This document shows positions 5,346 to 40,254 of a stretch of DNA of 64,000 bases, in pieces. A program made the position numbers and the translations under genes. Source of the stretch: Micromonospora citrea (GTDB lineage: Bacteria > Actinomycetota > Actinomycetes > Mycobacteriales > Micromonosporaceae). Position 1 is the first letter of the stretch. Every line of letters begins with the position of its first letter. Where the stretch lies: positions 682,001 through 746,000 of the forward strand of contig NZ_FMHZ01000002.1 in the NCBI RefSeq assembly GCF_900090315.1, written 5' to 3'. The notes under the pieces are model-generated. The model saw only the letters and a program-made list of their open reading frames with translations, made no database searches and was not told where the DNA came from.

Positions 5346-5996
5346 ATGCGTACCGACATCCTGCGTAAGACCGCCCTGACCGCTGCCGGCCTCGCCTTCA
5401 CCGGCGGCGCCATCGCCGGCCCCGTCACCACCGCCCACGCCGCCCCGACCGGCAGCAATCCCGTCTCGGTCACTCAGGACCGCAAGAACGGCGAGCGGGA
5501 ACTCGGCGTCCGCTACGAGGCCCAGCCGAACTTCTACTACTGCGGCCCCGCCGCCGCCCGCAACGCCCTCAGCGTCCAGGGCAAGAACATCGACGTCGAC
5601 GGCATGGCCAAACTGATGGGCACCACCGAAGCCGGCACCAACTCCATCAACGACATCACCCCCGTCCTCAACAAGGAAACCGGTAAGGACGCCTACCAGT
5701 CCGTCGAGATCCGCGAAGCCACCGCCGACGACAAGCAGACCCACAAGCTGCGCACCGACATCGTCACCGCCATCGACGAAGGCCACGCCGTCGTCGCCAA
5801 CATCGCCGGCACCGCCACCGACACCGACGGCACCACCCACTCCTTCGAAGGCGGCCACTACATCAGCGTCGTCGGCTACCGCGACAACGGCAACACCGTC
5901 ACCATCGCCGACTCCGCCGACCCCAACCAGGCCTCCTACCGGATGAGCATCGACACCCTCGCCGACTGGATCGCCACCCGCGGCTACACCGCCTGA
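5346..5996 (+). CDS. Secreted C39-like cysteine peptidase
   Basis: 216 residues. The N-terminus is a Sec signal peptide (RKTALTAAGLAFTGGAIAG) with probable cleavage after AHA at residue 32. The mature part has a papain-fold C39-like layout: Cys66 in FYYCGPAAARNAL, His171 in GGHYISVVGY, and Asp189 in ADSADP, matching the Cys-His-Asp order of the family. No bacteriocin ABC transporter is attached, so this is a stand-alone secreted enzyme, possibly acting on wall or extracellular peptides; the substrate is unknown. The ATG at 5346 is preceded by a good ribosome site; longer in-frame readings upstream run through Pro/Arg-rich noncoding sequence. Its leader peptide closely resembles that of the lysozyme-fold protein at 62916-63509. 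Confidence 0.85.
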   Translation: MRTDILRKTALTAAGLAFTGGAIAGPVTTAHAAPTGSNPVSVTQDRKNGERELGVRYEAQPNFYYCGPAAARNALSVQGKNIDVDGMAKLMGTTEAGTNSINDITPVLNKETGKDAYQSVEIREATADDKQTHKLRTDIVTAIDEGHAVVANIAGTATDTDGTTHSFEGGHYISVVGYRDNGNTVTIADSADPNQASYRMSIDTLADWIATRGYTA

Positions 5997-6024
5997 CCGA
6001 CCGCTCGACACCACCACCAACGAC

Positions 6025-6055
6025 AAGGGCCGGCCCCGACAAGGGGCCGGCCCTT
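6025..6055. terminator. Strong hairpin between convergent genes
   Basis: A perfect 13-bp stem, AAGGGCCGGCCCC (6025-6037) with GGGGCCGGCCCTT (6043-6055), closes a 5-base loop and ends in a short T run. It lies between the stops of the rightward C39-like gene and the leftward 14-kb operon and can serve both directions. Confidence 0.85.
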
Positions 6056-6069
6056 TCGTCGTGCCCGCG

Positions 6070-6891
6070 TCAGGCCGCGTAGCGGGCGGCGAGGTCGACG
6101 GTGCGACGGGCGGCGGCGACCATGGCCCGGTCGGCGAACCGACCGTCCGGCAGCACCACCGTGCCGGAGCTGCGGGTCTGCGCCTCCGCCACCGCGGCGA
6201 GCAGTTCCTCCGCGCGGGCCACCTCGCCCTCCGCCGGACGGAACGCCTCGGCGATCACCGGAAGCTGGCGCGGGTGGATGGCCGCCCGGCCGAGGAAGCC
6301 GAGCCGCCGGCCGAGGGCGCACGAGGCGGCGAGGCCGTCGAGGTCGGCGACGTGCGCGTACACCGACATGGCGGGCGGGGGCAGGGCGGCCGCGCGGGCC
6401 GCCACCACGACCCGGCCACGGGCCCAGGCCAGGCCGGCGTCGTCGTCGACGCCGAGGTCGGAGCGCAGGTCGGCCTCGCCGAGACCGATCGAGGCCACCG
6501 CGGGGTCGGCGGCGGCAATGGCGTACGCGGACTCCAGGCCGAGGGCCGACTCGATCAACGGGTGCAGCGGGGCGTCCACCCGGGCGGCGACGGCGGCGAC
6601 GGCGTCCGCCGACTCCACCTTCGGCAGCCGCAGCCCCGCCAGCCCGGGGCGGCCGACCAGCGCGGCCAGGTCGGCGTCGAGGTCCGGGCCGGTCAGCTCG
6701 TTGACCCGGACCTGGACCGGCACCGGATGCGGCTGCCCGAGGAACTCGGCGACGGCCTGCCGCGCGTACGCCTTGCGGTCGGCGAGCACCGCGTCCTCCA
6801 GGTCGAGGATCACCGCGTCGGCGCCCGAGGCGACCGCCTTGGCGAACCGGTCCGGCCGGTCGCCGGGCACGTAGAGCCAGGTCAGCAGCAA
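6070..6891 (-). CDS. CitE-type CoA-ester lyase (HpcH/HpaI aldolase superfamily)
   Basis: 273 residues, the usual length for the CitE/Mcl group, which cleaves or condenses beta-hydroxyacyl-CoA esters such as citryl-, malyl- or citramalyl-CoA in the cytoplasm. Visible hallmarks are WLYVPGDRPDRFAKA at the N-terminus, DAVILDLEDAV (metal/substrate region), LRLPKVE, LIESALGL and GFLGRAAIHPRQ near the end. The start must be the TTG at 6891, directly after the TGA of the CoA-transferase, because no other start keeps the conserved N-terminus; AAGGGGG lies about 10 bases upstream. It is the last gene of the LacI-headed operon. Pairing with a CaiB transferase suggests activation of a small organic acid and then cleavage of its CoA ester. 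Confidence 0.88.
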   Translation of the reverse strand: MLLTWLYVPGDRPDRFAKAVASGADAVILDLEDAVLADRKAYARQAVAEFLGQPHPVPVQVRVNELTGPDLDADLAALVGRPGLAGLRLPKVESADAVAAVAARVDAPLHPLIESALGLESAYAIAAADPAVASIGLGEADLRSDLGVDDDAGLAWARGRVVVAARAAALPPPAMSVYAHVADLDGLAASCALGRRLGFLGRAAIHPRQLPVIAEAFRPAEGEVARAEELLAAVAEAQTRSSGTVVLPDGRFADRAMVAAARRTVDLAARYAA

Positions 6892-8103
6892 TCAGATCAC
6901 CCCCTTCTCGCGCAGTGCCGCCAGCTCGGCGTCGGTCAGGCCGAGGGACCGCAGCACCGCGTCGGTGTCCTGGCCGTGCCGGCGCCCGGCGTGGCGGATG
7001 TCCCCGGGCGTCGCCGAGAGCCGGAACGGCACGTTCTGCATCCGCACCTCGCCCAGTTCCTCGTCGGGAACGGTGCGGACGGTGCCGAGCGCGGCGTACT
7101 GCGGATCGGCGAGGATGTCGCGCACGTCGTAGACCGGGGCGACCGCCGCCTGGGCGGCCTCGAACGCCGCCACGACCTCGTCCCGGTCGCGCTGGGCGAC
7201 CCAGGCGCCCACGGCGGCGTCCAGTTCGTCGGCGTGCGCGGCCCGGCCGCTGCCGGTGGCGAACCACGGTTCGTCCACCAGCTCCGGGCGGCCGACCAGC
7301 CGCAGCACCCGCTCGGCGATGCTCTGCGCGCTGGTCGACACCGCCACCCAGCGCCCGTCGGCGCAGCGGTACGTGTTGCGCGGCGCGTTGTTGTTGGACC
7401 GGTTGCCCAGCCGGGGCTGGACGTAGCCGAGCTGGTCGTACCAGGTGATCTGCGGGCCCAGCATGGCCATGATCGGCTCGATGATGGCGAGGTCGACCAC
7501 CTGCCCGGCCCCGGTGAGGTCGCGGGCCCGCAGCGCCAGCATGACCGCGTACGCGGCCGCCAGCGCGGTCACCGAGTCGGCCAGCCCGAACGGCGGCAGG
7601 GTCGGCGGCCCGTCCGGCTCCCCGGTGACGGCGGCGAAGCCGCTCATCGCCTCGGCCAGGGTGCCGAACCCGGGCCGCCGCGCGTACGGGCCGACCTGAC
7701 CGAAGCCGCTGATGCGGGCGATCACCAGCCGGGGGTTGACCGCGTGCAGCTCGGCCGGGCCGAGCCCCCACCGCTCGAGGGTGCCGGGGCGGAAGTTCTC
7801 CACCAGCACGTCCGCGTCGGCGAGCAGCCGGCGCAGCAGCTCGGCGCCCCGCGGGTCGGACAGGTTCAGGGTGACGGTGCGCTTGTTGCGCCCGAGCACC
7901 TTCCACCACAGCCCGACGCCGTCCTTTGCCGGGCCGTGCCCACGCGACGGGTCCGGCTTGGCCGGATGCTCCACCTTGACCACGTCGGCGCCGAAGTCGC
8001 CGAGGAACGCCGCGGCGAGCGGCCCGGCGAAGAGGGTGGCCAGGTCGACCACCTTCACCCCGTCGAGTGGGCCGGGCCGGGCCGGTTCTGCTGCGGTCGT
8101 CAT
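6892..8103 (-). CDS. CaiB/BaiF-family CoA-transferase
   Basis: 403 residues, standard length for class III CoA-transferases, which move CoA between carboxylic acids through an aspartyl-CoA intermediate. Family signatures: GVKVVDLATLFAGPLAAAFLGDFGADVVKVEHP at the start, read here as positions 14-46, NKRTVTLNLSDPRG, LVENFRPGTLERWGLG, and the late block with HGQDTDAVLRSLGL. The probable catalytic Asp lies in PFGLADSVTALAAAYA. Start ATG 8103 overlaps the stop of the esterase gene by four bases, and its own stop abuts the CitE gene. The substrate acid cannot be told from sequence; with the CitE-like lyase it probably handles a product released by the upstream hydrolases. Confidence 0.88.
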   Translation of the reverse strand: MTTAAEPARPGPLDGVKVVDLATLFAGPLAAAFLGDFGADVVKVEHPAKPDPSRGHGPAKDGVGLWWKVLGRNKRTVTLNLSDPRGAELLRRLLADADVLVENFRPGTLERWGLGPAELHAVNPRLVIARISGFGQVGPYARRPGFGTLAEAMSGFAAVTGEPDGPPTLPPFGLADSVTALAAAYAVMLALRARDLTGAGQVVDLAIIEPIMAMLGPQITWYDQLGYVQPRLGNRSNNNAPRNTYRCADGRWVAVSTSAQSIAERVLRLVGRPELVDEPWFATGSGRAAHADELDAAVGAWVAQRDRDEVVAAFEAAQAAVAPVYDVRDILADPQYAALGTVRTVPDEELGEVRMQNVPFRLSATPGDIRHAGRRHGQDTDAVLRSLGLTDAELAALREKGVI

Positions 8104-10253
8104 GGCGTTCCCTTCGCCGGATCGATGGTGGCCAGGAAGACGTCGCCGTTGCCGAGCGCCCCGCCCGGCACCGTCCCGGCGGTGAGCCCGCTGACCCGCA
8201 GCCGCCCGTCGGCGCCGAGGGCGGCGTAGACGTTCTCCTCGCCGAAGGCGTCCGCGGCGTCGTCGCGGCCGGTGCCGTACTGGGCGACGCCGAGCTGGCG
8301 GCCACGGGAGTCCAGGCGCAGCGTCAGCACGTCCGCTCCCCCGACCGGCACCCCGAGGCTGCTGCCGGTGAAGCCGACCACGGCCACCGCCCCGCCGGGC
8401 AGGGCCACCACGTCGGCGCCGCCGTCCGCGCCCCGACCGCCGGTCACCGTCCGCCAGCGCTGCCGGCCCGCCGCCGTGTACGCCACGGTCAGCACGTCGG
8501 TGCCGCCCGCGGCGGCCTCGCCGCCGACCGAGCCGGTGGCCACCACCGTGCCGGTGGAGCTGACCGCGACCCCGCCGAGCAGGTCGTCGCCCGCCCCGCC
8601 GACCGAGGTCGCCCAGCCCCGGTTGCCGGCCGGGTCGAAGCGGGCCAGCCAACCGTCGGTGCCGCCGAGCGCGGTGGTGCCGGGCAGGCCGGCCGAGGTG
8701 CCGCCGGCGACGTACACGCCTCCGGCGTCGACGGCCACCGCGTACGCCTTGTCCTCGCCGGGGCCGCCGAACTGCCGGCTCCAGGCGACCGACCCGTCCG
8801 GGGCGATCCGGGCCAGCACCGCGTCCTTGTCCCCCGCCGGGGTCGTCCCGTCGAACGAACCGCTGGTGTAGCCGGCGACGTAGGCGCCGCCGTCCGGGGC
8901 GGCCGCGATCGCGTAGAACCGGTCCGCCCTGGCCGGGTCGCCGGCCTGGGTCAACCAGGCCCGCTGCCCGGTCGCGGTCAGCCGGGTCACGAACCCGTCG
9001 TCGGCGGGGCTGCCGGGGTGCCGGCCGTCGAGGTCGCCCCGGGTGTAGCCGGCCGCGACCACGCCGCCGTCGGCGAGCGGCACCACTCCGTGGAGCCGGT
9101 CGTTGGCGGGGCTGCCGAACTGGGTCGTCCACCGGGTGCCGGTGGCGTCCAGCCGGCTCACCACGGCGTCCAGTCCGCCCGCGTGCGGCTGGCCGGCCAC
9201 CGGACCGGAGGCCGCGTACCCGATGGTGGTGGCGCCGTCCGGGTGGGTGGCGACGCCGCCGGCCCAGTCGGTGCCCGCGCTGCCGTACGCCGGCCCGGGC
9301 AGCCCCGCCGGCGGGGTGACGCTCAGCGTGGGCGCCAGCCGCCGCAGGCCGTCCACGAAGGCCGGTCGCCAGACGTCCCAGTCGTGTCCCCCGTCGAGCA
9401 CCCGGAACTCGGCGGCCACCCCGTCGGCGCGGCGCACGGCGTTGTAGAGGGTCGCCGCCTCGTAGTCCAGGTCGTGTGCCGCGTCCGCCGGGTTCGGGTT
9501 GGCCCACTCGTCGTCGCCGACGGCGATGTACAGCCGAACCGGCGACTCCGGGTCCAGCCCGGGCAGCAGCGCCGGGTAGTTGAGCCGCTGGTAGACCTCG
9601 TCGGAGAAGCGCTGCTCGCCGGAGCCGAAGGCGCCGAACTCGCGTGCCGAGGAGTCGGCCGGCGGCAGCGGCCGGTACACCGCCGGGCTGAGCACCAGCG
9701 CGTTGGCGAAGAGGTCGGAGTGGGCCAGGGCGTAGCGCAGGGCGCCGGCGCCGCCCATCGAGTAGCCGCCGACCAGCCGGGCGCCGCGGTGCGCGGCGGT
9801 GCGGTAGGTGCCGTCGACGTGCGCCACCAGGTCCCGGGTGAGCGCGGTCTCCACCGGCCGGCCCGGGTCGTCCGCGCCGGTGTACGCGGAGTCGACGTAC
9901 CAGTTGCCGCGGCTGCTCCACGGGGCGTCGGGCAGCACGGCGATCACCGGGGGCACCTCGCCGTCGGCGATCAGCCGGTCCAGGTCGGCCTTCACCCGCG
10001 TCCACGCCGTCATGGTGTCGCCCCGGCCGTGCAGCAGGTAGAGCACCGGGTAGCGGGTGGCGCCGGCGGCGTCGTAGCCGTGCGGCAGGTAGACGGTGTA
10101 GTCGATGCCGCCGCCCAGCGCCGGCGAGGGCGCCGAGGCGGTGGTCAGGGTGCCCGCGGGCAGCCGCTCCGCGGCGGCCGGCTCCGCGCCGGCCAGCCCG
10201 AGCGCGAGGAGCACGGCGGCCACGCCGCCGCCGATCCGCCAGCGTCTGCTCAT
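8100..10253 (-). CDS. Secreted esterase fused to a beta-propeller-like repeat domain
   Basis: 717 residues. A signal peptide (about 1-28, ending AAAE) is followed by an esterase-D/feruloyl-esterase-like alpha/beta hydrolase (about 35-315): [12 protein letters not shown], nucleophile Ser165 in GGYSMGG, and the late His in DGGHDWDVWRP. Residues about 330-710 form seven or so repeats of the WTTQFGSPANDRLHGV / GGVYVAGGTS type, as in SBBP-like bacterial propellers. The esterase part would remove acyl groups from an extracellular sugar or glycoconjugate; the propeller may bind polymer. It sits 4 bases after the GH/FGE fusion gene and overlaps the CaiB gene by 4 bases, so it belongs to the operon even though most neighbours are cytoplasmic. 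Confidence 0.82.
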   Translation of the reverse strand: MSRRWRIGGGVAAVLLALGLAGAEPAAAERLPAGTLTTASAPSPALGGGIDYTVYLPHGYDAAGATRYPVLYLLHGRGDTMTAWTRVKADLDRLIADGEVPPVIAVLPDAPWSSRGNWYVDSAYTGADDPGRPVETALTRDLVAHVDGTYRTAAHRGARLVGGYSMGGAGALRYALAHSDLFANALVLSPAVYRPLPPADSSAREFGAFGSGEQRFSDEVYQRLNYPALLPGLDPESPVRLYIAVGDDEWANPNPADAAHDLDYEAATLYNAVRRADGVAAEFRVLDGGHDWDVWRPAFVDGLRRLAPTLSVTPPAGLPGPAYGSAGTDWAGGVATHPDGATTIGYAASGPVAGQPHAGGLDAVVSRLDATGTRWTTQFGSPANDRLHGVVPLADGGVVAAGYTRGDLDGRHPGSPADDGFVTRLTATGQRAWLTQAGDPARADRFYAIAAAPDGGAYVAGYTSGSFDGTTPAGDKDAVLARIAPDGSVAWSRQFGGPGEDKAYAVAVDAGGVYVAGGTSAGLPGTTALGGTDGWLARFDPAGNRGWATSVGGAGDDLLGGVAVSSTGTVVATGSVGGEAAAGGTDVLTVAYTAAGRQRWRTVTGGRGADGGADVVALPGGAVAVVGFTGSSLGVPVGGADVLTLRLDSRGRQLGVAQYGTGRDDAADAFGEENVYAALGADGRLRVSGLTAGTVPGGALGNGDVFLATIDPAKGTP

Positions 10254-10257
10254 CAGC

Positions 10258-12207
10258 TCACTCCCGTCCGGTCGGCAGGTCGGCGGCGCAGCGGAAGCCG
10301 ACCTGGTCGGAGCGGCTCGTCCCGGCGCCGGTCAGCAGCAGCTTCACCGACACGTCGGGCGGCTGCGGCCCGCCGTCGAGGTACCAGTCCGAGCCCTCCG
10401 CCCGGTACGCGGCGCCGCCCTTGACGATGACGAACCGGGTACGCCCGTCGGAGTGCTCGCTCTCGGTCAGGTTCCACACCAGCGGCTCACGGCGGGTCAG
10501 CAGTCCCGCCTCGGCGGCCACCTGCCACTCGTCCTCGGTGGGCAGCCGCAGTCCGGCCCACGCCGCGTACGCGCGGGCGTCGGCCAGTTCGACGCCGGTG
10601 ACCGGCGCGTCGGCGGGGCCCTGCCCGGCGGTGAACCGCTCGGAACGCACCGGTCGGTAGCCGGTGGCGCGCAGGAACTCGGCGTACTGGCCGTGGGTGA
10701 CCTCGTGGGTGTCGATGGCGAACCGGCCCAGCGTCACGTTGCGACGCAGGGTGCCGGTGTGGTGCAGCCGGGGCGGCAGCGGCTTCCACTCGTCGACGTA
10801 CGGGGTCTCCCCGTACAGTCCGGTCTCGCGCACCCGGTGCCGCACCAGCAGCTCGCGCCGGCCGCCGTCGACGGCGACCATGCCGTCGGGCGCATCGGCG
10901 CGCGGCGCCCACGGGGTGCGGGCCCGCACCGCGGCGCGGGCCGGGAAGGACGGGTCGCCGGTCGGGGCGGGGTGCGCCGGCACGGCGGCGTCGGTGGCGA
11001 CCACCGCGGCGATCGCGCCGGCCGGCAGCGGGCCGCCCACCGCGACCCGACCGTCGGGGGTCGGCGTGGCGGTCAGGTCGGCGCCGGTGACCAGATCGAC
11101 GAAGCGCCGCCCGGGACGCGGCTCGGTGACCAGCCACGGCCCGTCGTGGTCGCCGCCGCGGTTCGCCACGGTCCACAGCGGTACGCCCTGGTGCGTCCAG
11201 CGGGACGCGTACACCTGGCCGGTGCCCGGGTGGTCGGCGAGCGGGACCCAGTCCTCGGCGCGCAGCCACGAAGCGTGGCTGGCCTGGATCCGGCGCATCG
11301 CCCGCAGCACCGCCCGGTCGCGGTCGTTCCAGCCGACCCAGACGCCGAAGACGCTCTCCCAGACCAGCACCCCGACCCCGTTGAGCCAGGCGGAGTGCAG
11401 CTCGTCGAGGTGGTCGCGGTGCCAGCGGCGGGTGTGGTGCAGCACGTGCCGCCGCTCGAACCACTTGGCCCGCAGCACGCCGGGCACCTCGGAGTCGGCG
11501 AACCACTGCGCCCAGGACATCGCGTGGTCGGCGATCCGGGCCAGCGGCACCCGGCTCTCGCCCTCCAGCACCATGCCGGGCCGGACGGCGTCCAGCTCGC
11601 GGCGCAGCTCGTCGGCGCCCTCCTTGAGGGTGTCCAGGAAGACCCCGTCGACGCCGAGCTTGCCGGCCAGCGCGGCGACCTCCCGCGCGTCGGTGCCGGC
11701 CTCCCGTCGGGTGCCGGTGTCCCACGGGTTGTAGTCGACGAACACCCGCACCCCACGGGCCTGGAACGCGCGCACCACCTCGGGCAGCTCGGGCACGTCC
11801 CGGTACCAGTCGAACTGGTTGCGCTCGTCCAGCCCGATCACCGGGTACGCGTGCCAGAGCACCACCCCGTCGAAGCCGCCGAAGTCCCGGTCGGCCGCGT
11901 CGAGGAACTCCTCGACGGTAAAGACCCCGCGCTCGTGGTCGTAGAGCGTCTCGTCCCAGAGCCAGGCGAGACAGACGCTGAAGCAGTCCAGCGGGATCTC
12001 GTCGTAGTGCGCGCCGGTGTAGCCCAGCCTGGCCCGCGCGTCGGCGCGCCAGCGGGTGAGCTGCTCGCGCCAGGCGGGCCAGTGCGCCGGGTCGTCCGGC
12101 GCCGCGAAGATCTTCGCCTCGTCGAGCGCGGTCAGGTCGGCGTGCCCGCCGAGCGGCACGTCGGTGGGCCGGTCGATCGGGCGCGGCACGTACGGGTTGA
12201 AGCTCAT
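10258..12207 (-). CDS. Glycosidase-like TIM-barrel protein fused to a formylglycine-enzyme-like domain
   Basis: 649 residues, no signal peptide. Residues about 60-330 look like a glycoside-hydrolase TIM barrel of the alpha-galactosidase-like kind: VVLWHAYPVIGLDE, VFVDYNPWDTGTR (Asp158), DGVFLDTLKEG (Asp192) and VLEGESR (Glu215/Glu217) on successive strands. Residues about 330-430 resemble a beta-sandwich. Residues about 440-645 are an FGE-sulfatase/SUMF1-like domain: FAIDTHEVTHGQYAEFL, RLPTEDEWQVAAEAG, VIVKGGAA and DQVGFRCA. The Cys pair used by true formylglycine enzymes for copper binding is not apparent, so this domain may bind rather than oxidise. ATG 12207 overlaps the kinase stop (ATGA). 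No sulfatase is encoded nearby. The precise glycosidase family is not identified. Confidence 0.75.
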   Translation of the reverse strand: MSFNPYVPRPIDRPTDVPLGGHADLTALDEAKIFAAPDDPAHWPAWREQLTRWRADARARLGYTGAHYDEIPLDCFSVCLAWLWDETLYDHERGVFTVEEFLDAADRDFGGFDGVVLWHAYPVIGLDERNQFDWYRDVPELPEVVRAFQARGVRVFVDYNPWDTGTRREAGTDAREVAALAGKLGVDGVFLDTLKEGADELRRELDAVRPGMVLEGESRVPLARIADHAMSWAQWFADSEVPGVLRAKWFERRHVLHHTRRWHRDHLDELHSAWLNGVGVLVWESVFGVWVGWNDRDRAVLRAMRRIQASHASWLRAEDWVPLADHPGTGQVYASRWTHQGVPLWTVANRGGDHDGPWLVTEPRPGRRFVDLVTGADLTATPTPDGRVAVGGPLPAGAIAAVVATDAAVPAHPAPTGDPSFPARAAVRARTPWAPRADAPDGMVAVDGGRRELLVRHRVRETGLYGETPYVDEWKPLPPRLHHTGTLRRNVTLGRFAIDTHEVTHGQYAEFLRATGYRPVRSERFTAGQGPADAPVTGVELADARAYAAWAGLRLPTEDEWQVAAEAGLLTRREPLVWNLTESEHSDGRTRFVIVKGGAAYRAEGSDWYLDGGPQPPDVSVKLLLTGAGTSRSDQVGFRCAADLPTGRE

Positions 12208-13142
12208 GACATCCCCGGATATGTGGCGGTGTACAGGGCCTCGATGGCGGCCCGCTCGGGCAGCGCGGTCGACGCGCCGGGGCGCTGGGCGCAGGCCGCG
12301 CCGGCGGCGCACGCCCAGCGCAGGACGGCGCTGACCGTGTCGGCGTCGACCGGACCGCCGCGTTCGGCCCAGCCGACGGCGAGGGCGCCGGTGAACGCGT
12401 CGCCGGCCGCGGTGGTGTCCACGGCCTCGATGCGCGGCGCGGCGATCTCCAGCCGCAGGCCGCTGCGGTCGGCGTACGCGGCGCCCCGCGCGCCGAGCGT
12501 CAGCACCGCCCGGGGCACCCGCTCCAGCAGCGCGTCGAGCAGGACGCGCGGCTCGGCGGAGTCCGCCTCGGCGACGACGGCCGCCTCGTGTTCGTTGACC
12601 ACCAGCACGTCGACCAGCCCCAGCAGCTCCGCCGGCAGCGGCGCGGCCGGCGCGGCGTTGAGCACGACGGTGGTGCCTCCGGCGCGGGCCAGGCCGGCCG
12701 CCGCCACCACGGTCGGCAGCGGCACCTCCAGTTGCAGCAGCAGCACGTCCGCCGCGCCGATGGCCGCCGCGTCGGCGGCGTCCAGGTCGGTCAGGGCGGC
12801 GTTGGCGCCGGGCGCGACGAGGATGAAGTTCTCCGCCGCCCGGTCGACCGCGATCAGGGCGACCCCCGAGGGGCCGGGGACGGTACGCAGGCCGGCGACG
12901 TCCACCCCGGCGCCGACCAGGTTGTCCCGCAGCCGCTGGCCGAACTCGTCGGCGCCGACCGCGCCCACGAACGCGCAGCGCGCGCCCGCGCGGGCTGCGG
13001 CGACGGCCTGGTTGGCGCCCTTGCCGCCGGGGACCGTCCGGAAGTCCTCCCCCAGCACCGTCTCGCCGGGGCGGGGCAGCTGCGGCGCGGTGACCACCAG
13101 GTCCAGGTTGGCGCTGCCCACCACGACCACCCGCGCGCTCAC
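12204..13142 (-). CDS. Ribokinase-family sugar kinase
   Basis: 312 residues, PfkB/ribokinase fold. N-terminal signature VVVVGSANLDLVV, substrate-binding PGETVLGEDFRTVPGGKGANQAVAAARAG and the C-terminal PfkB signature DTTAAGDAFTGALAV, with the catalytic Asp in AAGDAF, are all present. The GGKGANQA motif is typical of ribokinases proper, so ATP-dependent phosphorylation of ribose or a close pentose is likely. Start GTG 13142 overlaps the upstream stop (GTGA) and the stop overlaps the next ATG. Placed directly after two ADP-ribosylglycohydrolase-family genes, it would trap the ribose-type sugar they release. Confidence 0.9.
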   Translation of the reverse strand: MSARVVVVGSANLDLVVTAPQLPRPGETVLGEDFRTVPGGKGANQAVAAARAGARCAFVGAVGADEFGQRLRDNLVGAGVDVAGLRTVPGPSGVALIAVDRAAENFILVAPGANAALTDLDAADAAAIGAADVLLLQLEVPLPTVVAAAGLARAGGTTVVLNAAPAAPLPAELLGLVDVLVVNEHEAAVVAEADSAEPRVLLDALLERVPRAVLTLGARGAAYADRSGLRLEIAAPRIEAVDTTAAGDAFTGALAVGWAERGGPVDADTVSAVLRWACAAGAACAQRPGASTALPERAAIEALYTATYPGMS

Positions 13143-14521
13143 GCGAGCCCGCCCCGGGTCGCGGCGACGCCGGAGGGCGCCGGGTCGGCGAGGGCGAGGG
13201 TGCGGGCGGCCAGCTCGCCGAAGCCGATGCCGTCGAAGCCGGCGATGCTGCTGGCCAGCCGGTCGCGCAGCGGGCCGACCCACCGCTCGGGCAGCCCCGA
13301 CGCGCCGGTCAGCGCCCCGGTCACCGCGCCGACGGTCGCGCCGGTCGAGTCGGTGTCCCAGCCGCCGCTGACGACCGCGCAGATCGACCGCTCCAGATCG
13401 CCGCGGCCGTACGCCAGCGCGGCGGCGACCAGTGCGGCGTTGTTGCGCACGTGCACCCAGTGCAGGTGGCCGTGCCGGGCGTACAGCTCGTCGACCACCG
13501 TCTCCCAGTCGTCGACGCCGGAGCCGAGCGCGCGTGCCTCCCGGACGGCGGCGGCGAACCGGCTGCGCGGCGGCAGCACCGCCTCACCGGCGTCGAGCAC
13601 CTCGTCGACGTCGCCCGCCACGGTCGCGGCGGCGGCCAGCGCGGCGACCCAGATCGCCCCGTACGCCCCGGCACGGACGTGGCTGACCGTGGCGTCGCGC
13701 CAGGCCAGCTCGGCGGCCAGGTCGGGGCGGCCGGGGTTGACCCAGCCGTACACGTCGGTGCGGATCTGCGCGCCGATCCACTCCCGGAACGGGTTGTGCC
13801 GCCGCGCCGTGTCCGGCGGGGCCAGCCCCAGCAGCAGGTTGCGGTAGGCCACCCGCTCGGCGGTGAAGACCCGGCCGCCGGGCAGCCAGTCCAGCCAGGC
13901 CTGCGCCACGTCGGCGCTGGTGAAGTCCCGCCCGTGGGTCTCCAGCACGCGCAGCGCCAGCAGCGCGAAGTTCAGGTCGTCGTCCTCGGGCATCCCGTCG
14001 ATGTTCTCGGCGAGGCTGGTCGGGGCGCTGCGCCGGTTCCACGGCCAGCGGGCCGCCACGTCGGCGGGCAGCCCTCGGGCCGTGAACCAGTCGCGCAGCG
14101 GCCACCGACCGGTGGCGACGAGGATCTCCCGGATCCCGTGACGGGGGATCTTCTCCACCGGCTTGCCGAGCAGGCAGCCCGCCGCCCGGCCCAGCCACGC
14201 GCCGTGCAGCCGGTCGTACGCGGCCGGTCCGGTGGGCAGCGACCACGCCGCCGGCCAGGTGGCGCGGACGCCGGCCAGGTCCTCGGGCTCGTCGGGGCCG
14301 CCGGCGCCCGGCAGCGCGTCGACCTCGTCGAGCAGTCGGGCGGCCAGCGCCCGCAGCCGCGCCGGCGCGGGCGTCGGCGAGGCCCCGCTGACCGGCGGGG
14401 TCAGCTCTCCGCCGGCCACGCTCCACTCCCGCGCGATCGCGTCGACGTCGCGCCCCTCGTCCCGGCTGGCCGCGATCTCGTGCGGCAGCAGGTCCTCGGG
14501 CTGCACCCAGGTGATCCTCAC
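13139..14521 (-). CDS. ADP-ribosylglycohydrolase-family protein (second copy)
   Basis: 460 residues. An N-terminal extension of about 105 residues, rich in Pro/Ala, precedes a DraG/ARH fold that starts at AYDRLHGAWLGRAAGCLLGKPVEKI. The two metal-site motifs of the family are visible: MPEDDDLNFALLALRVLE (in place of the usual TDDT) and GGWDTDSTGATVGAVTGALTG. ARH enzymes hydrolyse N- or O-glycosidic bonds to ADP-ribose or ribose and need Mg or Mn. Start GTG 14521 overlaps the paralogue upstream and the stop overlaps the kinase. The EDDD substitution and extension suggest a substrate different from that of its neighbour, possibly a simple ribosyl compound. Confidence 0.85.
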   Translation of the reverse strand: MRITWVQPEDLLPHEIAASRDEGRDVDAIAREWSVAGGELTPPVSGASPTPAPARLRALAARLLDEVDALPGAGGPDEPEDLAGVRATWPAAWSLPTGPAAYDRLHGAWLGRAAGCLLGKPVEKIPRHGIREILVATGRWPLRDWFTARGLPADVAARWPWNRRSAPTSLAENIDGMPEDDDLNFALLALRVLETHGRDFTSADVAQAWLDWLPGGRVFTAERVAYRNLLLGLAPPDTARRHNPFREWIGAQIRTDVYGWVNPGRPDLAAELAWRDATVSHVRAGAYGAIWVAALAAAATVAGDVDEVLDAGEAVLPPRSRFAAAVREARALGSGVDDWETVVDELYARHGHLHWVHVRNNAALVAAALAYGRGDLERSICAVVSGGWDTDSTGATVGAVTGALTGASGLPERWVGPLRDRLASSIAGFDGIGFGELAARTLALADPAPSGVAATRGGLA

Positions 14522-15714
14522 CGCGCCGGCTCCCCGGCCACCGCCCCCGACGGTCCGTCGACCGTGCCGCCGGCCACGGCGTCGGCAAGGCCGGCGAAAC
14601 GCTCGGCGCGGCGGGCGAAGCGCTCCCGGTCGCGGTCGAAGACCTCCGTGGCGACCTCGGCGAGCGCCCGGGCGGGCGCGACCAGGTCGGTGCGGGAGGC
14701 GGCGGCGACCGCCTCCGACCACTGCGCCGGCACGGCCGTCGTGCCGCCGAGCGCCCCGGCGATCGCCCCGGCCATGGTGGCGGTCGAGTCGGCGTCGCGG
14801 CCGTAGTTGACCGCGCCGAGCACCGCCTCGCGGAAGTCGCCGCCGGCCACCACCAGCATGCCGATCGCCACCGGCAGCTCCTCGATGGCGTGCAGCCGGC
14901 TCGGCCGCCGGGCACCCAGCCCGGGGCTGCGGTACTCCTCCCCCACCGTGTCGTAGGGGGCGACCGCGGCGCGCAGCGGACCGATGGCGGCCCGCCAGTC
15001 CCGGTGCCCCCGGGCCTCCTTGACCACCGCGTCGATGGCTGACCGGGTGCCGTCGCGGGCCAGGTCGAGCGCGGCGGCGACCACGTCCTCGACGCCCGCG
15101 CCGGGGGCCGCCGCGGCGGCGACCGCGGCGGCGAAGACCGCTGCGGCCTCCCGGCCGTAGCTGTGCTGGTGCGCCCCGGCGATCTCCACCGCCTCGGCGT
15201 ACGCCCCGGCCGGGTCGCCCGCGTTGACGATGCCGACCGGGGCCATGTACATGGCCGCACCGCAGTTGACGATGTTGCCGACCCCCGCCTCGCGCGGGTC
15301 GGCGTGCGCGTGGTGCAGGCGGGTGACCAGCCACCGCTCGGCGGCCGCGAGCCGGTGGAAGGTCACCCCCTCGCGCTCCAGGTCCGGGATGTATACCACC
15401 CGCTCGATCAGGTCGGGGACGAGCAGTTCCACCACGTCGTACGCGTCGAGGTGGTCGCGCTTGGCCGCGTACGCCCGCACGAGGGCGTGGGTCATCAACG
15501 TGTCGTCGGTGATGTGCCCGTCGCCCTTGTGGTACGGCGCGAGTGGCCGCGCGGTCGCCCAGTCGGCGTGGTACGGGGGCACGATGCCCTCGACCCAGCC
15601 GCCGAAGCGGGCGCGGATCTGCTCCGGAAGCGCCGTCTCGGTCGCCCCGCCGAGGGCGTCACCCACGGCGGCGCCGACGAGACATCCGACCGACTTGTCG
15701 AGAAGGAGAGACAT
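14518..15714 (-). CDS. ADP-ribosylglycohydrolase-family protein (first copy)
   Basis: 398 residues, close to the normal DraG/ARH length. It begins with DKSVGCLVGAAVGDALGGATET, has the metal motif GHITDDTLMTHALVRAYA and the second metal motif NYGRDADSTATMAGAIAGALGG near the C-terminus. Family members remove ADP-ribose or ribose from proteins or small molecules using two Mg/Mn ions. ATG 15714 lies 2 bases after the stop of the sugar-binding protein, behind AGGAGAG-like sequence in that gene's end. Being encoded inside a sugar ABC operon, it is more likely to work on an imported glycoside than on protein ADP-ribosylation; this is inference. Confidence 0.88.
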   Translation of the reverse strand: MSLLLDKSVGCLVGAAVGDALGGATETALPEQIRARFGGWVEGIVPPYHADWATARPLAPYHKGDGHITDDTLMTHALVRAYAAKRDHLDAYDVVELLVPDLIERVVYIPDLEREGVTFHRLAAAERWLVTRLHHAHADPREAGVGNIVNCGAAMYMAPVGIVNAGDPAGAYAEAVEIAGAHQHSYGREAAAVFAAAVAAAAAPGAGVEDVVAAALDLARDGTRSAIDAVVKEARGHRDWRAAIGPLRAAVAPYDTVGEEYRSPGLGARRPSRLHAIEELPVAIGMLVVAGGDFREAVLGAVNYGRDADSTATMAGAIAGALGGTTAVPAQWSEAVAAASRTDLVAPARALAEVATEVFDRDRERFARRAERFAGLADAVAGGTVDGPSGAVAGEPAR

Positions 15715-15716
15715 CG

Positions 15717-17009
15717 TTACCTCAGAACCTGCTTGCCACCGTCGACCAGCTGCGTGCCGAGCTGGTCCAGGGTGATCTTGTTGGCGAAGTACTGCTGGAG
15801 GGCCGGGGTGGCGTACTTGGTCTTCCACTCCGGGTAGCCCTGGGCCTGCTGGAACGGCGCGACGGTCAGGTCGGCGGCGCTGTCCGCGGCGACGTCCCAG
15901 CCCTGCTTGCCGCCGGTGAGCTTGACCAGTTCCTCGTTGGCCTTCTTGCCGGTCGGCACCAGCCAGTCACCCTTGGCGAGGGCGGCCATGTTGGTCGGGT
16001 TCAGGAAGAACTCGATGAACTGCGCCGCCTGCTTCTTGTGCTTGGAGTCCTCGGCGACCGACAGGGTCTGCGGGTTGGCGGCCTGCTTGCTGGACAGCCC
16101 CTTGATGGGCGGCAGGGTGACCCACTCGAAGCCGGCCGGCGCCTGCTCGACCATCTGCTGGCGCAGCGACACCGAGCCGGGCAGCATCGCGTACTTGCCG
16201 CCGAAGAAGCCGGGCAGGGTGTCCGCGCCGCTCATGCCGAGCGCCTCCGGGGAGGCCGACTTCGCGGTGTAGATCATGTCGTGGATGCGCTTGGGGACCT
16301 CCTTCTCGGCGTCGCCGACCCTGACCTCGGTGCGGCCGCCGTCGGTGTAGAAGAACTTCCCGTCGAAGTTGAGCGCCAGGTTCAGCACCCGGTTGGTGGG
16401 CGACTTCAGCGCCCAGGCCGCGCCGTACTGGCCGGGCTTGGTCAGCTTCTGCGCGTTGGCCTGGAACTCGTCCCAGGTCCAGCCGCCGTCGGCGGGCGGC
16501 ACCGCGACACCGGCGGCGTCGAGCAGCTTCTTGTTGGCGATGACGACCTGCGACTCCAGCAGGAACGGCACGCCGGTGACCTTGCCGTCGTAGGTGACGG
16601 TGTCCCAGACGCCCTTGTCGATCTGGCCCTTCAGGTCGTCCGAGACGAGCTTGGACAGGTCGGCGAGGTAGCCCTGCTTGCTGAACTCGCCGATGGCGGA
16701 CGCCTCGTAGTGCACGATGTCGGCCGCGTCGCCGCCCTCGAAGGACGTGAGCAACTGGTCGTGGATCGAGTTCCAGTCACCCTGGACGTACTCGACCTGG
16801 ATGTCCGGGTGCTCGGCGTTCCACTTGGCGACCAGGTCCTTGTTGGCCTGCAGCGACTCCTTCTGCCAGGCCAGGCTGAGGAAGCGCAGCTTGACCGGGC
16901 CGGACGTGGCCTCGTCGTCGCCGCCGTCGCCGCACGCGGTGAGCGCGCCGAGGCCGACGACGGCGACCGCCGCGGCCGCGGCGAGCCGACGGAATCTGGT
17001 ACGGAGCAT
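15717..17009 (-). CDS. Sugar ABC transporter substrate-binding lipoprotein
   Basis: 430 residues of the extracellular solute-binding family 1. A lipoprotein signal peptide ends in the lipobox LTAC (VVGLGALTACGDGGDD), so the protein is anchored outside the membrane. Typical blocks follow: VEYVQGDWNSIHDQLLTSFEGGDAADIVHYEASAI, GVPFLLESQVVIANKKLLDAAGV. The ATG at 17009 has a perfect AAGGAGG ribosome site. It comes after both permease genes rather than before them, an unusual order. No ATPase is encoded in the operon; such systems usually share an MsiK-like ATPase encoded elsewhere. Confidence 0.92.
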   Translation of the reverse strand: MLRTRFRRLAAAAAVAVVGLGALTACGDGGDDEATSGPVKLRFLSLAWQKESLQANKDLVAKWNAEHPDIQVEYVQGDWNSIHDQLLTSFEGGDAADIVHYEASAIGEFSKQGYLADLSKLVSDDLKGQIDKGVWDTVTYDGKVTGVPFLLESQVVIANKKLLDAAGVAVPPADGGWTWDEFQANAQKLTKPGQYGAAWALKSPTNRVLNLALNFDGKFFYTDGGRTEVRVGDAEKEVPKRIHDMIYTAKSASPEALGMSGADTLPGFFGGKYAMLPGSVSLRQQMVEQAPAGFEWVTLPPIKGLSSKQAANPQTLSVAEDSKHKKQAAQFIEFFLNPTNMAALAKGDWLVPTGKKANEELVKLTGGKQGWDVAADSAADLTVAPFQQAQGYPEWKTKYATPALQQYFANKITLDQLGTQLVDGGKQVLR

Positions 17010-17044
17010 GGGGGTACCTCCTTGGTGGTGGGTGGGGGACGGTG

Positions 17045-17884
17045 TCAGCCCTTGACCGCGCCGGCGAGCGACCCGGACGAGAGCCGGCGTTGCATGAACG
17101 CGAAGAAGATCAGGCTGGGCAGGGTGGCCAGCAGGGAACCGGCCGCCAGGGGGCCCAGGCGGGCGGTGCCCTCGATGCCCACGAAGCGGGCCAGCGCGAC
17201 CGGCAGGGTCGCCAGCTCCGGGGTCTTGATCAGCACGAGGGCGAAGAAGAACTCGTTCCAGGCCGAGATGAACGAGAACAGCGCGGTGGCGACCAGCCCG
17301 GGGGCGAGCAGCGGGAAGACCACCCGCCGCAGGATCTGCACCCGGCTGGCGCCGTCGACGGAGGCGGCCTCCTCCAACTCGCGCGGGATGTTGCGCACGA
17401 ATCCCTGCAGCATCCACAGCGCGAACGGCAGCGCCCACACCACGTAGATCAGCACCAGCCCGGCGTGGGTGTTGGCCAGCCCGACCTGCCGCAGCACCAG
17501 GAAGATCGGGATGATCAGCAGCACGAACGGGAAGAGCTGGGACAGCAGCACCCAGCCCAGCGCCGCGGTGCCGAGCTTCGAGCGGAACCGCGCCAGGGCG
17601 TACGACGCGGGCAGCGCCACCAGCACGGTGAGCACGGCCGAGGCGAGCGAGACCTGGAGGCTGTTCAGCGCGGCCCGGCCCAGCTCCTGCTCGGTGAACG
17701 CCTGGACGAAGTTCTCCACCGTCGGGTTTGCGGGGATCAGCGTCGGGTGCAGCTGGACCAGCTCGCGCGGCGGCTTGAAGGCCGTCGAGACCAGCCAGAC
17801 CAGCGGGAACCCGAGGAAGATCAGGTAGCCGGCCAGCGCGACGTACTGCAACGCCCGCCCGGTGCGGCTCGGCTTTCCGAACAT
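17045..17884 (-). CDS. Sugar ABC transporter permease (MalG type)
   Basis: 279 residues with six predicted membrane spans and the binding-protein-dependent permease motif EAASVDGASRVQILRRVVFPLLAPG (EAA loop for the ATPase) at about 185-210. The family moves sugars across the membrane with a partner permease and a binding protein. I prefer ATG 17884 over the GTG three bases earlier because GGAGG lies at correct spacing. It is separated from the preceding permease by 58 bases. Confidence 0.9.
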   Translation of the reverse strand: MFGKPSRTGRALQYVALAGYLIFLGFPLVWLVSTAFKPPRELVQLHPTLIPANPTVENFVQAFTEQELGRAALNSLQVSLASAVLTVLVALPASYALARFRSKLGTAALGWVLLSQLFPFVLLIIPIFLVLRQVGLANTHAGLVLIYVVWALPFALWMLQGFVRNIPRELEEAASVDGASRVQILRRVVFPLLAPGLVATALFSFISAWNEFFFALVLIKTPELATLPVALARFVGIEGTARLGPLAAGSLLATLPSLIFFAFMQRRLSSGSLAGAVKG

Positions 17885-17942
17885 CACTGCCCTCCGATCA
17901 GGACTGCGGGGCTCGCGGGGTCACTTCCGACACCGACCATGG

Positions 17943-18878
17943 CTAGTTCGCCTCCCTGAGCCGACGACGCAGATAGACGGCCAGCAGCGCCACGATGATC
18001 ACGACCATCACGTTGCCGAGCGCGGCGGCGTAGCCGTAGTTGCCGTAGCGGAACGCCTCCTCGTAGGCGAACAGCATCGGCAGCATCGTCTTGCCGCCCG
18101 GCCCGCCGGCGGTCAGCACGTAGACCAGGCCGAACGAGTTGAAGTTCCAGATGAAGTCCAGCGAGGTGATGGCCACGATCACCGGGGCCAGCGCGGGCAG
18201 CGTGACGTGCCGGAAACGGTGCCAGGTGCTGGCGCCGTCCACCGCCGCCGCCTCGTGCAGCTCGCGACCCACCCCCTGCAGGCCGGCGAGGAGCACGACG
18301 GTGGTCTGCGGCATGCCAGCCCACACCCCGACGACGATCACGGCGGGCAGGGCGGTGCCGAAGTCGCCGAGCCAGTTGGTCCGCAGACCGTCGGCGCCGA
18401 CCCGGTGGAAGAACTCGTTCAGCAGGCCGGCGTCCGGGTGGTAGACCAGCTTCCACAGGATGCCGACCACCACCGGCGGCATCGCCCACGGCACCACGGC
18501 CAGCACGCGCGCCATGCCACGGAAGCGCAGCCGCTGGTTGAGCAGCAGCGCGAGCCCGAGGGCCAGCAGGAACTGCAGGACGGTCACCCCGAACGCCCAG
18601 AGCAGGCCGACCTGGAAGGAGTTCCAGAACAGCTCGTCGCCGAGCAGCTCGCGGTAGTTCTCCAAGCCCGTGAAGCTCACCTCGACGTTGCGTCCGGCCC
18701 GGGCGTCGGTGAACCCGAGGTACATGCCGCGTACCAGGGGGAAGACAGACAGCACCAGGATCGGCAGCAGCGACGGGAGCAGCAGCAGGTAGATCATGGT
18801 CCGGTCGGAGCGGGACCGGGTGTGCCGCCGGCCCGGACCGTTCCGGTCGACGTCCGGCCGCTCGGCGACGGTCGTCAC
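17943..18878 (-). CDS. Sugar ABC transporter permease (MalF type)
   Basis: 311 residues. A short basic N-terminus precedes six membrane spans (first LLLLPSLLPILVLSVFPLV). The EAA loop HEAAAVDGASTWHRFRHVTLPALAPV marks the contact with the shared ATPase. FTDARAG and NYRELL near the first periplasmic loop are typical of MalF/UgpA relatives. The GTG start at 18878 overlaps the LacI stop by four bases, linking regulator and transporter in one transcript. Confidence 0.92.
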   Translation of the reverse strand: MTTVAERPDVDRNGPGRRHTRSRSDRTMIYLLLLPSLLPILVLSVFPLVRGMYLGFTDARAGRNVEVSFTGLENYRELLGDELFWNSFQVGLLWAFGVTVLQFLLALGLALLLNQRLRFRGMARVLAVVPWAMPPVVVGILWKLVYHPDAGLLNEFFHRVGADGLRTNWLGDFGTALPAVIVVGVWAGMPQTTVVLLAGLQGVGRELHEAAAVDGASTWHRFRHVTLPALAPVIVAITSLDFIWNFNSFGLVYVLTAGGPGGKTMLPMLFAYEEAFRYGNYGYAAALGNVMVVIIVALLAVYLRRRLREAN

Positions 18879-19942
18879 GACGGCACCTCCTCGGTGGACG
18901 GGCGGGGGGCGGGCACGGCCGCCCGGCTGGAGGCGCGGACGGCGAGGCTGGGCGACACCTGCTCGCGGCGGGGCGGCAGGGCCGGGTCGTCGATCCGCTG
19001 CAGCAGCAGCTCGGCCGCCCGGCGACCGCGCTCGGCCGAGCCGAGCGAGACGCTGGACAGCTGGGGGAACATCATCTGGGCCAGCTCGGTGTCGTCCATG
19101 CCGACCACCGCCACGTCCTCGGGCACCCGGTGCCCGGCGGCCAGCAACGCGTGCAGCGCGCCGACGGCGATCAGGTCGTTGGCGCAGACCAGGGCGTCCG
19201 GGCGGGCCCGGGCGAGCAGCCGCTCGGTCGCCGCGCGGCCGGGCGCGTACTGGAAGTCGCCGACCTCGACCAGCCGCTCGTCGAGCGGGATGCCGTGCTC
19301 GGCGAGCGCGGCGCGGAAGCCGGCGTCGCGCGTGGCGCCGGGGACGGTGTCCAGCGGGCCGTTGACGAAACCGATGCGGCGCCGCCCGCTGGCCACCAGG
19401 TGCTCCACGGCGAGCGCGACGCCGCGGCGGGAGTCGGTCCGCACGTTGTCGACGGGCGCGTCGGCGGCGAGCTGACCGACCACCACCACCGGCACCGGGC
19501 TCTGCACCAGCGCGGCGAGGTGGTCGTCGGTGACCCGGATCGGCGAGAGGATCATGCCGTCGACGTAGCGGTTGGCCAGCCGCCTCAGCAGCGCCGTCTC
19601 GTTGGCGATCCGCCCGCCGGTGGCGTGCACGAGCAACTGCCGGCCGGACGCGGCCACCACCGCCTCGATGGCCCGCATCATCGACACGTAGACGGGGTTG
19701 CCGATGTCCTCGACGGCGAGGGCGATCAGGCCGGTGCGCTGGGACTGCAGCGAGCGGGCGATGGCGTTGGGCACGTACCCGACCTCGGCCGCGGCGGCGC
19801 GGACCCGGCGGATGGTCTCCTCGCTGCCGCCGACGCCGTTGAGGACCCGGGACGCGGAGGCGATGGAGACGCCGGCGCGGGCGGCGACGGTGTGGACGGT
19901 GGGCCGGCTGTCGGCCGACTCCTGTAAACGTTTACGACCCAC
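18875..19942 (-). CDS. LacI-family transcriptional repressor of the 14-kb operon
   Basis: 355 residues with an N-terminal HTH (TVHTVAARAGVSIASASRVLNG) and a sugar-binding periplasmic-protein-like domain (LIALAVEDIGNPVY to VVGMDDTELAQMMFPQLSSV). It probably represses its own operon until a ribose-type or glycoside ligand binds. I chose GTG 19942 because GGAGG (19951-19955) lies 8 bases upstream; longer starts reach into operator sequence. With this start, a perfect 12-base operator GTAAACGTTTAC falls inside codons 3-7, so bound repressor would sit on the gene's own beginning. It is the first gene of the operon and overlaps the permease gene. Confidence 0.92.
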   Translation of the reverse strand: MGRKRLQESADSRPTVHTVAARAGVSIASASRVLNGVGGSEETIRRVRAAAAEVGYVPNAIARSLQSQRTGLIALAVEDIGNPVYVSMMRAIEAVVAASGRQLLVHATGGRIANETALLRRLANRYVDGMILSPIRVTDDHLAALVQSPVPVVVVGQLAADAPVDNVRTDSRRGVALAVEHLVASGRRRIGFVNGPLDTVPGATRDAGFRAALAEHGIPLDERLVEVGDFQYAPGRAATERLLARARPDALVCANDLIAVGALHALLAAGHRVPEDVAVVGMDDTELAQMMFPQLSSVSLGSAERGRRAAELLLQRIDDPALPPRREQVSPSLAVRASSRAAVPAPRPSTEEVPS

Positions 19943-20051
19943 GCCTGGCACCTCCACCTGATTTCTGTAAACGTTTCCGGGAGTCTGCGCCGCCCGTGGC
20001 GAGCAGGTCAAGGGTCCGTTACGAAAACGTTTCCAACCGACGGAAACGCTG
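19924..20051. promoter_or_regulatory. Cluster of LacI-type operators
   Basis: Three related palindromes centred on ACGT: GTAAACGTTTAC (19924-19935, perfect, inside the LacI coding start), GTAAACGTTTCC (19967-19978) and GAAAACGTTTCC (20023-20034). A weak half-site GGAAACGCTG follows at 20042-20051. Centre spacings are 43 and 56 bases. The arrangement fits repression of the leftward promoter by the adjacent LacI protein. Confidence 0.85.
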
Positions 20052-37607: not shown

Positions 37608-37739
37608 GGCGAGACTCTACGGTCCCGGGGGCGGGACCGCAGGCCGGGGCCGCCGTACGGTCCACAGCCGCCGGAGCCGGCGCGCGGCCGATGCCCGCCC
37701 CTGCCGCCGTCGTCCGCGCCGGCGACGGTCGTGGCCTCG

Positions 37740-37811
37740 CTGCGAGCGGAGGACTCGAACCTCCATCGCCCGCTCCAGAGGCGGGTGTGCTGCCGATTGC
37801 ACCAGCTCGCA
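37740..37811 (-). tRNA. tRNA-Gln (CTG anticodon)
   Basis: A 72-base cloverleaf read on the minus strand: acceptor TGCGAGC/GCTCGCA (7 bp), D stem GTGC/GCAC, anticodon stem CCCGC/GCGGG with loop CTCTGGA giving anticodon CUG, T stem GGAGG/CCTCC with loop TTCGAGT, discriminator G. All stems pair perfectly. CCA is not encoded. Confidence 0.95.
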
Positions 37812-40074: not shown

Positions 40075-40134
40075 CGTCGTCTCCTCGTGTCGTCGGCTGG
40101 TCGCCACCGTCGCGGTGGGACCGGGGAGGTTCGA

Positions 40135-40201
40135 CGGCCGCCCGGGAATCGAACCCGGCGAGAGCGACCTGCACGGCCTCTCCGCGCCCAGCGCGCGGCC
40201 G
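40135..40201 (-). ncRNA. Compact tRNA-like fold in the rtcB leader
   Basis: Read on the minus strand, 67 bases fold as a mini-cloverleaf: acceptor CGGCCGC/GCGGCCG (7 of 7), D-like arm GCGC-TGG-GCGC, anticodon-like arm GAGAG/CTCTC with a 13-base loop, and T arm CCGGG-TTCGATT-CCCGG joined without a gap to the acceptor strand, exactly as in tRNA. The T loop is canonical. The two-base linker after the acceptor, a normal anticodon loop and CCA are missing, so it is unlikely to decode. It could be a ligase substrate mimic or sensor controlling rtcB, or a relic tRNA. The rest of the gap 40075-40591 holds the terminator and small ORF listed below. Confidence 0.6.
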
Positions 40202-40254
40202 GCCCGTCGGGTGCTGGTCGACGGGTGCGGCGGGGGAAGTCGGTCCGTTCGGAC

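Follow-up and report, generated by a model that had tools for sequence, protein, structure and literature searches.

The predicted operon described here lies in a 64,000-nucleotide stretch (the window) of the genome of Micromonospora citrea, contig NZ_FMHZ01000002.1, positions 682,001 to 746,000, the host genome comprising 7,208,999 bases in two contigs. Eleven coding sequences (CDSs) are arranged head to tail on the minus strand between positions 6070 and 19942, with lacI first and citE last (Table 1). The gaps between them, in the order lacI to citE, are -4, 55, 35, 2, -4, -4, -4, 4, -4 and 0 bases, and the codon-position GC along the whole stretch backs coding on the minus strand. The CDS calls, the gaps and the codon-position GC thus bore out the original prediction, made from the letters alone, of eleven leftward genes joined mostly by small overlaps or gaps. 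The gene families named at that time were upheld by Pfam and NCBIfam. The protein then called 'glycosidase-like' was refined to a GH13-like barrel plus a formylglycine-generating-enzyme-like (FGE-like) domain.

Table 1. Genes and operators of the predicted operon, with positions in the window (ABC, ATP-binding cassette; ARH, ADP-ribosylglycohydrolase; relatives are the 44 Micromonosporaceae loci described in the text).
Feature	Position	Strand	Remarks
LacI-type operator 3 (GAAAACGTTTCC)	20023..20034	.	one of 3 genomic GNAAACGTTTNC places
LacI-type operator 2 (GTAAACGTTTCC)	19967..19978	.	GNAAACGTTTNC place
LacI-type operator 1 (GTAAACGTTTAC)	19924..19935	.	GNAAACGTTTNC place; within lacI start region
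LacI/RbsR-like repressor	18875..19942	-	Pfam LacI and Peripla_BP_3; 43/44 relatives
Sugar ABC permease, UgpA/MalF-like	17943..18878	-	NCBIfam only, under cut-offs; 43/44 relatives
Sugar ABC permease	17045..17887	-	Pfam BPD_transp_1 only; 44/44 relatives
Solute-binding protein, SBP_bac_1 type	15717..17009	-	Pfam; 44/44 relatives
ARH1, ARH-fold hydrolase	14518..15714	-	ITDDT and GRDxDS metal motifs
ARH2, second ARH-family hydrolase	13139..14521	-	PF03747; 44/44 relatives
Ribokinase-like PfkB kinase	12204..13142	-	PF00294; 44/44 relatives
GH13-like barrel plus FGE-like domain (GH/FGE)	10258..12207	-	no obvious signal peptide, by eye
Putative secreted esterase, beta-propeller repeats	8100..10253	-	PF00756, SBBP; secretion judged by eye
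CaiB-type (family III) CoA-transferase, proposed citramalate CoA-transferase	6892..8103	-	PF02515; 43/44 relatives
CitE-type lyase, proposed citramalyl-CoA lyase	6070..6891	-	PF03328, 100.2 bits; 43/44 relatives

The three matching LacI operators of the original prediction stood up to a genome-wide search. The motif GNAAACGTTTNC occurred in exactly three places, all within 19924-20034, and its backwards control in none (7,208,999 bases). The start of lacI was taken as the GTG at 19942, preceded by GGTGGAGG (judged by eye), and therefore the first operator falls inside the lacI start region. All ten related loci inspected had an AACGTT core close to the start of lacI, and six of them (L055, L056, L057, L059, L060 and L061) carried a pair spaced 43-45 bases. 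As far as the exact motif shows, the LacI regulon would be a private one with a single target. The best NCBIfam model of the repressor was RbsR (198.8 bits; the cut-off of 382 was not reached). A scan of 5800-6300 revealed neither a sigma-70-type promoter nor a terminator.

No gene for an importer ATPase was present among the eleven; the nearest UgpC-like ATPase is encoded elsewhere in the genome and is 60% identical to UgpC of the Sinorhizobium cluster. The kinase scored 265 bits with the ribokinase model TIGR02152 (cut-off 299.65), the best of 18 families, and its closest solved chains were ribokinases (PDB 6znx, E=4.6e-73). ARH1 and ARH2 belong to the ADP-ribosylglycohydrolase fold, scoring above the gathering score of PF03747 and having metal motifs at both ends.

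A search of 150 Micromonosporaceae genomes for the FGE-domain gene gave matches in 46. Leaving aside the own genome and G027, a weak partial hit with nothing related to the operon in its stretch (L051), 44 related loci were compared. The gene order lacI-permF-permG-SBP-ARH1-ARH2-RbsK-GH/FGE-(EST)-CaiB-CitE, in which SBP is the solute-binding protein and EST the esterase, was intact in 42 of the 44, the esterase aside. Locus L201 ends at a contig edge and still carries CaiB and CitE. The esterase was present in 19 of the 44 loci and, being optional, is not considered central to the pathway. When the phylum was sampled, the GH/FGE gene was found in the own genome alone (1 of 396), and ARH1 therefore replaced it as the search marker. 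At E<=1e-40, ARH1 was detected in ten of the 396 genomes, namely the own genome and nine of one genus, g50. ARH1, ARH2, CaiB and CitE were clustered in all nine g50 loci; neither a relative of the window importer nor the GH13-like gene was found in these stretches. In L042, inspected by eye, the cluster lies between the gltB and trpA genes and a further ARH gene precedes it. This placement and the extra ARH gene fit Streptomyces, and we infer that g50 is probably Streptomyces and its cluster the SCO2028-SCO2030/SCO2031 genes. In Nonomuraea gerenzanensis (L066:7961-13424), four ARH genes in a row and a ribokinase gene lie behind LacI and ABC genes, with no CaiB or CitE found beside the ARH genes; this locus bridges the multi-ARH arrangement of g50 and the importer.

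The CaiB-type protein scored 417.7 bits against PF02515 (gathering score 23.3), which places it among the family III CoA-transferases. Its LAD aspartate, which we take to be the catalytic nucleophile, was conserved in all nine cluster sequences compared. CaiB of the window showed 73-75% identity with two g50 sequences and 37-38% with two paralogues in its own genome; the identity was 67-78% among four Actinobacteria and 39-47% across phyla. The CaiB tree was unrooted and did not settle whether the CaiB genes had a single origin. The best PDB match of CitE was 8khl, an acyl-CoA lyase beta chain, with which its VRxN, Glu and GxxD aligned. These positions were conserved in 95% or more of the CitEs from the clusters, and the Arg, Glu and Asp among them are presumably active-site residues. 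CitE did not reach the RipC/Ccl equivalog NF038242 (143.1 vs 375 bits), with which it shares the superfamily only; its identity was 60% with one g50 sequence and 26-37% between members of different phyla. Pfam and NCBIfam detected no hydratase, dehydratase, dehydrogenase or other oxidoreductase in the operon, and therefore the acid is expected to be released as a 2-hydroxy acid, ready for cleavage by CitE.

An alignment scan with ARH1 across 84,980 species genomes yielded at least 558 relatives. The best 80 of these (of at least 558), as ranked against a Sinorhizobium ARH1, are the basis of a sample of 85 loci, in which actinobacterial loci are nearly absent. Plasmid records were also matched, 22 by ARH1 and 31 by ARH2, and five of them were inspected. 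Among the Proteobacteria, Sinorhizobium, Ensifer, Devosia and others carry LacI, two permeases, the solute-binding protein, ARH1, a 700-aa ARH2, often UgpC, and then CaiB and CitE. Paenibacillus, Cohnella, Bacillus and relatives carry a like importer, ARH1, ARH2 and usually ribokinase, with CaiB and CitE missing. At the position of CaiB and CitE, these Bacillota encode an AtuA protein of about 460 residues (PF07287; we take AtuA to be the family also called DUF1446), followed by a DUF4387 protein of about 100 residues (PF14330), each Pfam assignment having been made on one sequence. The AtuA-like protein of L113 was 49.7% identical (215 of 433 positions) to PDB 9erq and matched 9erq/9evf with E=1.4e-131, these entries having been deposited as citramalate lyase subunit A. 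The protein is called CmlA here, and a DUF4387 partner (CmlB) accompanied it in 30 of 30 loci; NCBIfam returned nothing for either protein.

Among the 85 loci, 40 carried CaiB and/or CitE, 30 carried CmlA, none carried both and 15 carried neither. Synteny of the CaiB/CitE part in relatives, named in the original prediction as a test, thus held in these 40 loci as well as in 43 of the 44 Micromonosporaceae loci and in 9/9 of g50. A swap was also seen within one family, that of L138 (Sporosarcina), where ARH1 was found at E<=1e-60 in 13 of 261 genomes. Eleven of the 13 had CmlAB without CaiB/CitE, two (L138 and L145) had CaiB/CitE, and none had both. In L138 and L145, CitE and CaiB adjoin the same GntR gene, and neither genome has a CmlA anywhere at E<=1e-40. 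L176 and L139 probably represent a single locus.

The accessible text of PMC4682846 gives two routes for citramalate, one in which citramalate lyase forms acetate and pyruvate, and the other in which a CoA-transferase and citramalyl-CoA lyase form acetyl-CoA and pyruvate. It also reports that the methylaspartate cluster of Enterobacteriaceae contains a DUF1446 gene to which no role had been assigned, the fate of citramalate being open there in 2015. Since two unrelated modules that substitute for one another can be expected to have a common function, and since the Bacillota place a citramalate lyase where CaiB and CitE sit, the freed acid would most likely be citramalate. The sugar is taken as ribose because ARH and ribokinase families are present. 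From the gene content, the locus-unique operators, the conserved order and the replacement of CaiB and CitE by a citramalate-lyase-like pair, we consider it probable, though far from assured, that the operon encodes a LacI-controlled catabolic pathway for a riboside of citramalate (2-methylmalate). We infer every chemical step, the identity of the sugar, the type of linkage, the stereochemistry and the nature of the inducer. The riboside would be imported by the solute-binding protein and the two permeases, together with an ATPase whose gene lies outside the operon. A larger form may first be trimmed by the secreted esterase, in some strains, and by the cytoplasmic GH13-like/FGE protein. ARH1 and ARH2 would then cleave the ribosyl bonds to give ribose and citramalate, and the ribokinase would convert ribose to ribose-5-phosphate. 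CaiB would transfer CoA to citramalate, and CitE would cleave the resulting citramalyl-CoA to pyruvate and acetyl-CoA. Release of LacI would presumably be triggered by the substrate itself or by one of the products. The outline in the original prediction, i.e. import of a riboside, its cleavage, phosphorylation of ribose and entry of the acid into CoA metabolism, fits the genes and the conserved CaiB/CitE synteny; the substrate, which it had left open, would now be narrowed to citramalate.

The two ARH proteins may not be equivalent. ARH2 accompanied the acid module in all 70 module-bearing loci of the 85-locus set, and ARH1 without a neighbouring ARH2 and without a module was found in L086, L095, L096, L109 and L107 (a short contig). 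As modules always come with ARH2 and ARH1-only loci lack a module, we would guess that ARH2 is tied to citramalate and ARH1 to ribosyl bonds generally.

Several observations weigh against a citramalate riboside as the substrate. The converse of the above association fails, ARH2 being present without a module in L062, L064, L065, L066, L102 and L118. The 15 loci without either module include at least four that are cut by contig ends (L083, L091, L136 and L140), and no CmlA was found genome-wide at E<=1e-40 in the module-less L086, L095, L096, L102, L107, L109 and L118. With neither module nor CmlA, the proposed routes would not account for the acid, if made, in these seven genomes. Among the Micromonosporaceae, L054 lacks CaiB and CitE as well as the citramalate lyase pair. 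Ribokinase was present in six of the nine g50 loci, with none seen in the other three, and the alphaproteobacterial CaiB/CitE loci have no ribokinase in the cluster. Mutual exclusivity of the modules mostly tracks phylum, which means that the 85 loci cannot be counted as that many independent observations; the clean contrast within a family amounts to one swap in two genomes. The best NCBIfam model of CaiB, below its cut-off, was succinate-glutarate CoA-transferase, and CitE scored nearly equally with citE (145.3 bits) and RipC_Ccl (143.1 bits), neither score reaching its cut-off. Given the low identity of CitE from one phylum to another (26-37%), CaiB and CitE may have been recruited more than once, possibly for different 2-hydroxy acids. 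Repeated recruitment would strengthen the functional reading and weaken a claim of strict orthology. Finally, no description of a riboside of citramalate was found in the openly readable literature, where, judging by listings, the two terms co-occur incidentally; to our knowledge, no such compound is known.

The same low identity of CitE between phyla is consistent with the same pathway acting on the riboside of a different 2-hydroxysuccinate (for example malate, 3-methylmalate or a 2-alkylmalate), with CaiB/CitE and AtuA/DUF4387 being cousins of the citramalate enzymes. CaiB and CitE both stay under the equivalog cut-offs, and CitE-family proteins in general accept several such acids. The AtuA partner, however, is half identical to a deposited citramalate lyase, and plain malate would presumably require no special module. 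We consider another acid unlikely, though worth keeping in view.

Alternatively, ADP-ribose, ADP-ribosylated molecules or nucleosides could be the substrates of the ARH proteins, CaiB and CitE serving a separate organic acid that is merely co-regulated. ARH1 and ARH2 share the fold and dinuclear metal motifs of the DraG/ARH3 ADP-ribosylhydrolases, and three loci (L086, L095 and L107) combine ARH1 and ribokinase without an acid module. The accessible parts of PMC5087735 and PMC9411070 name SCO2028-SCO2030 and SCO2028-SCO2031, respectively, as uncharacterised DraG/ARH homologues of Streptomyces, which would bear on the present proteins if these genes are indeed the g50 cluster. However, ARH1 and ARH2 scored 59.1 and 33.1 bits against the DraG equivalog TIGR02662, far below its cut-off of 337, and the GRDxDS loop of ARH1 corresponds to GGDxD in DraG and MJ1187. 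As per the accessible text of PMC13036486, neither SCO2028 nor SCO2030 hydrolysed U-ADPr, a single substrate. The genes are located in a sugar-uptake operon with a binding protein of SBP_bac_1 type, and the constant company of ARH2 and the acid module also speaks against an unconnected role, although ARH2 occurs without a module too. ADP-ribose, which the original prediction had listed among the possible substrates, gained no positive support beyond the fold, and we regard this explanation as decidedly doubtful. An ordinary oligosaccharide operon, in which a hexose-containing glycoside is cut by the GH13-like protein and ARH, CaiB and CitE are passengers, would suit the SBP_bac_1 importer and the GH13-like barrel and is most improbable, as the GH13-like gene was found in none of the nine g50 stretches and in only two of the 85 wider loci (L078 and L099), most of these loci having kept their ARH and acid genes.

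The operon is of a known kind, the glycoside-uptake operon; what is new is the combination of enzymes and the predicted substrate. The E. coli yegTUV genes encode a transporter, the ARH-like YegU and the PfkB kinase YegV, a combination also seen here. They are not known to include a CoA-transferase, lyase or second ARH, and differ in transporter and regulator class. The citramalate branch of methylaspartate (mesaconate/glutamate) degradation has the same two alternative routes from citramalate to pyruvate, and the AtuA/DUF4387 pair of the relatives is homologous to CmlA. In that branch citramalate comes from mesaconate or itaconate, whereas here it is predicted to come from a riboside, and neither mesaconase nor hydratase was found among the eleven genes. 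The itaconate cluster (Ict-Ich-Ccl / RipABC) shares a CoA-transferase and a CitE-type lyase with the operon, RipC being among the two best models of CitE, though below cut-off. The itaconyl-CoA hydratase was not found among the eleven genes, which have ARH, ribokinase and ABC genes instead; itaconate degradation was rejected for want of a hydratase. No published description of the combined ARH, ribokinase, ABC transporter and LacI gene set was found in the titles and beginnings of abstracts among the matches listed.

If the citramalate riboside is the substrate, vaguely annotated genes become a testable pathway with a named acid, ARH-fold enzymes acquire a role outside ADP-ribosylation, and an undescribed natural product, possibly an overlooked natural food source, is predicted. 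It is conceivable, at a little under even chances, that ribosylated citramalate, or a larger molecule containing it, is a widespread unreported metabolite of soil and rhizosphere, that three phyla have equivalent pathways with CaiB plus CitE and citramalate lyase as interchangeable ends, and that SCO2028-SCO2031 are sugar-catabolic ribosidases and not erasers of ADP-ribosylation. This gives reason to revisit the conserved multi-ARH cluster of the probable Streptomyces group, the genes of which were published as ADP-ribosylation hydrolases. Since every step is carried out by a soluble enzyme, the claim is testable in a few assays.

Other candidates were set aside. Salvage of alpha-ribazole/cobamide and breakdown of methanopterin were dropped as no supporting genes were seen. 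In the accessible part of PMC13432705, the ribose kinase STM3547 has another gene neighbourhood and no ARH, and was dropped as a parallel. PMC5036795 was likewise dropped, its accessible part mentioning SCO2028 only around a primer and construct. The 700-aa alphaproteobacterial ARH2 has a conserved C-terminal region of about 400 residues (L062, L063, L067 and others). Pfam gave no match for this C-terminal half in the three sequences tested, and NCBIfam none for the 700-aa protein; a fusion of ARH2 with ribokinase was rejected, as Pfam found no PfkB domain in the three.

In Caballeronia/Paraburkholderia (L086:7610-11269, L096 and L109), ARH1 is accompanied by a LacI gene and a transporter, of the major facilitator superfamily by Pfam in L086. 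L086 additionally has a ribokinase, and neither ARH2 nor an acid module was found in any of the three; these loci may represent a minimal riboside pathway. L095 and L107 (Pararhizobium and Ruegeria) combine ABC genes, ARH1, UgpC and ribokinase with a protein that is roughly 350 aa long and contains hydrophobic stretches; they have no ARH2 or acid genes. In six Micromonosporaceae genomes (G031, G036, G061, G080, G094 and G112), the GH/FGE match was split in two, in some with a stop inside the matched range, which would reflect a variable linker or else disruption of the gene. ARAGORN called a tRNA-Gly at 9618-9697 (-), inside the esterase gene and on the same strand, which is probably a false call. 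It also called a tRNA-Gln (ctg) twice in the window, at 37739-37811 and 40133-40227 (-), with a distance of about 2.3 kb between the two.

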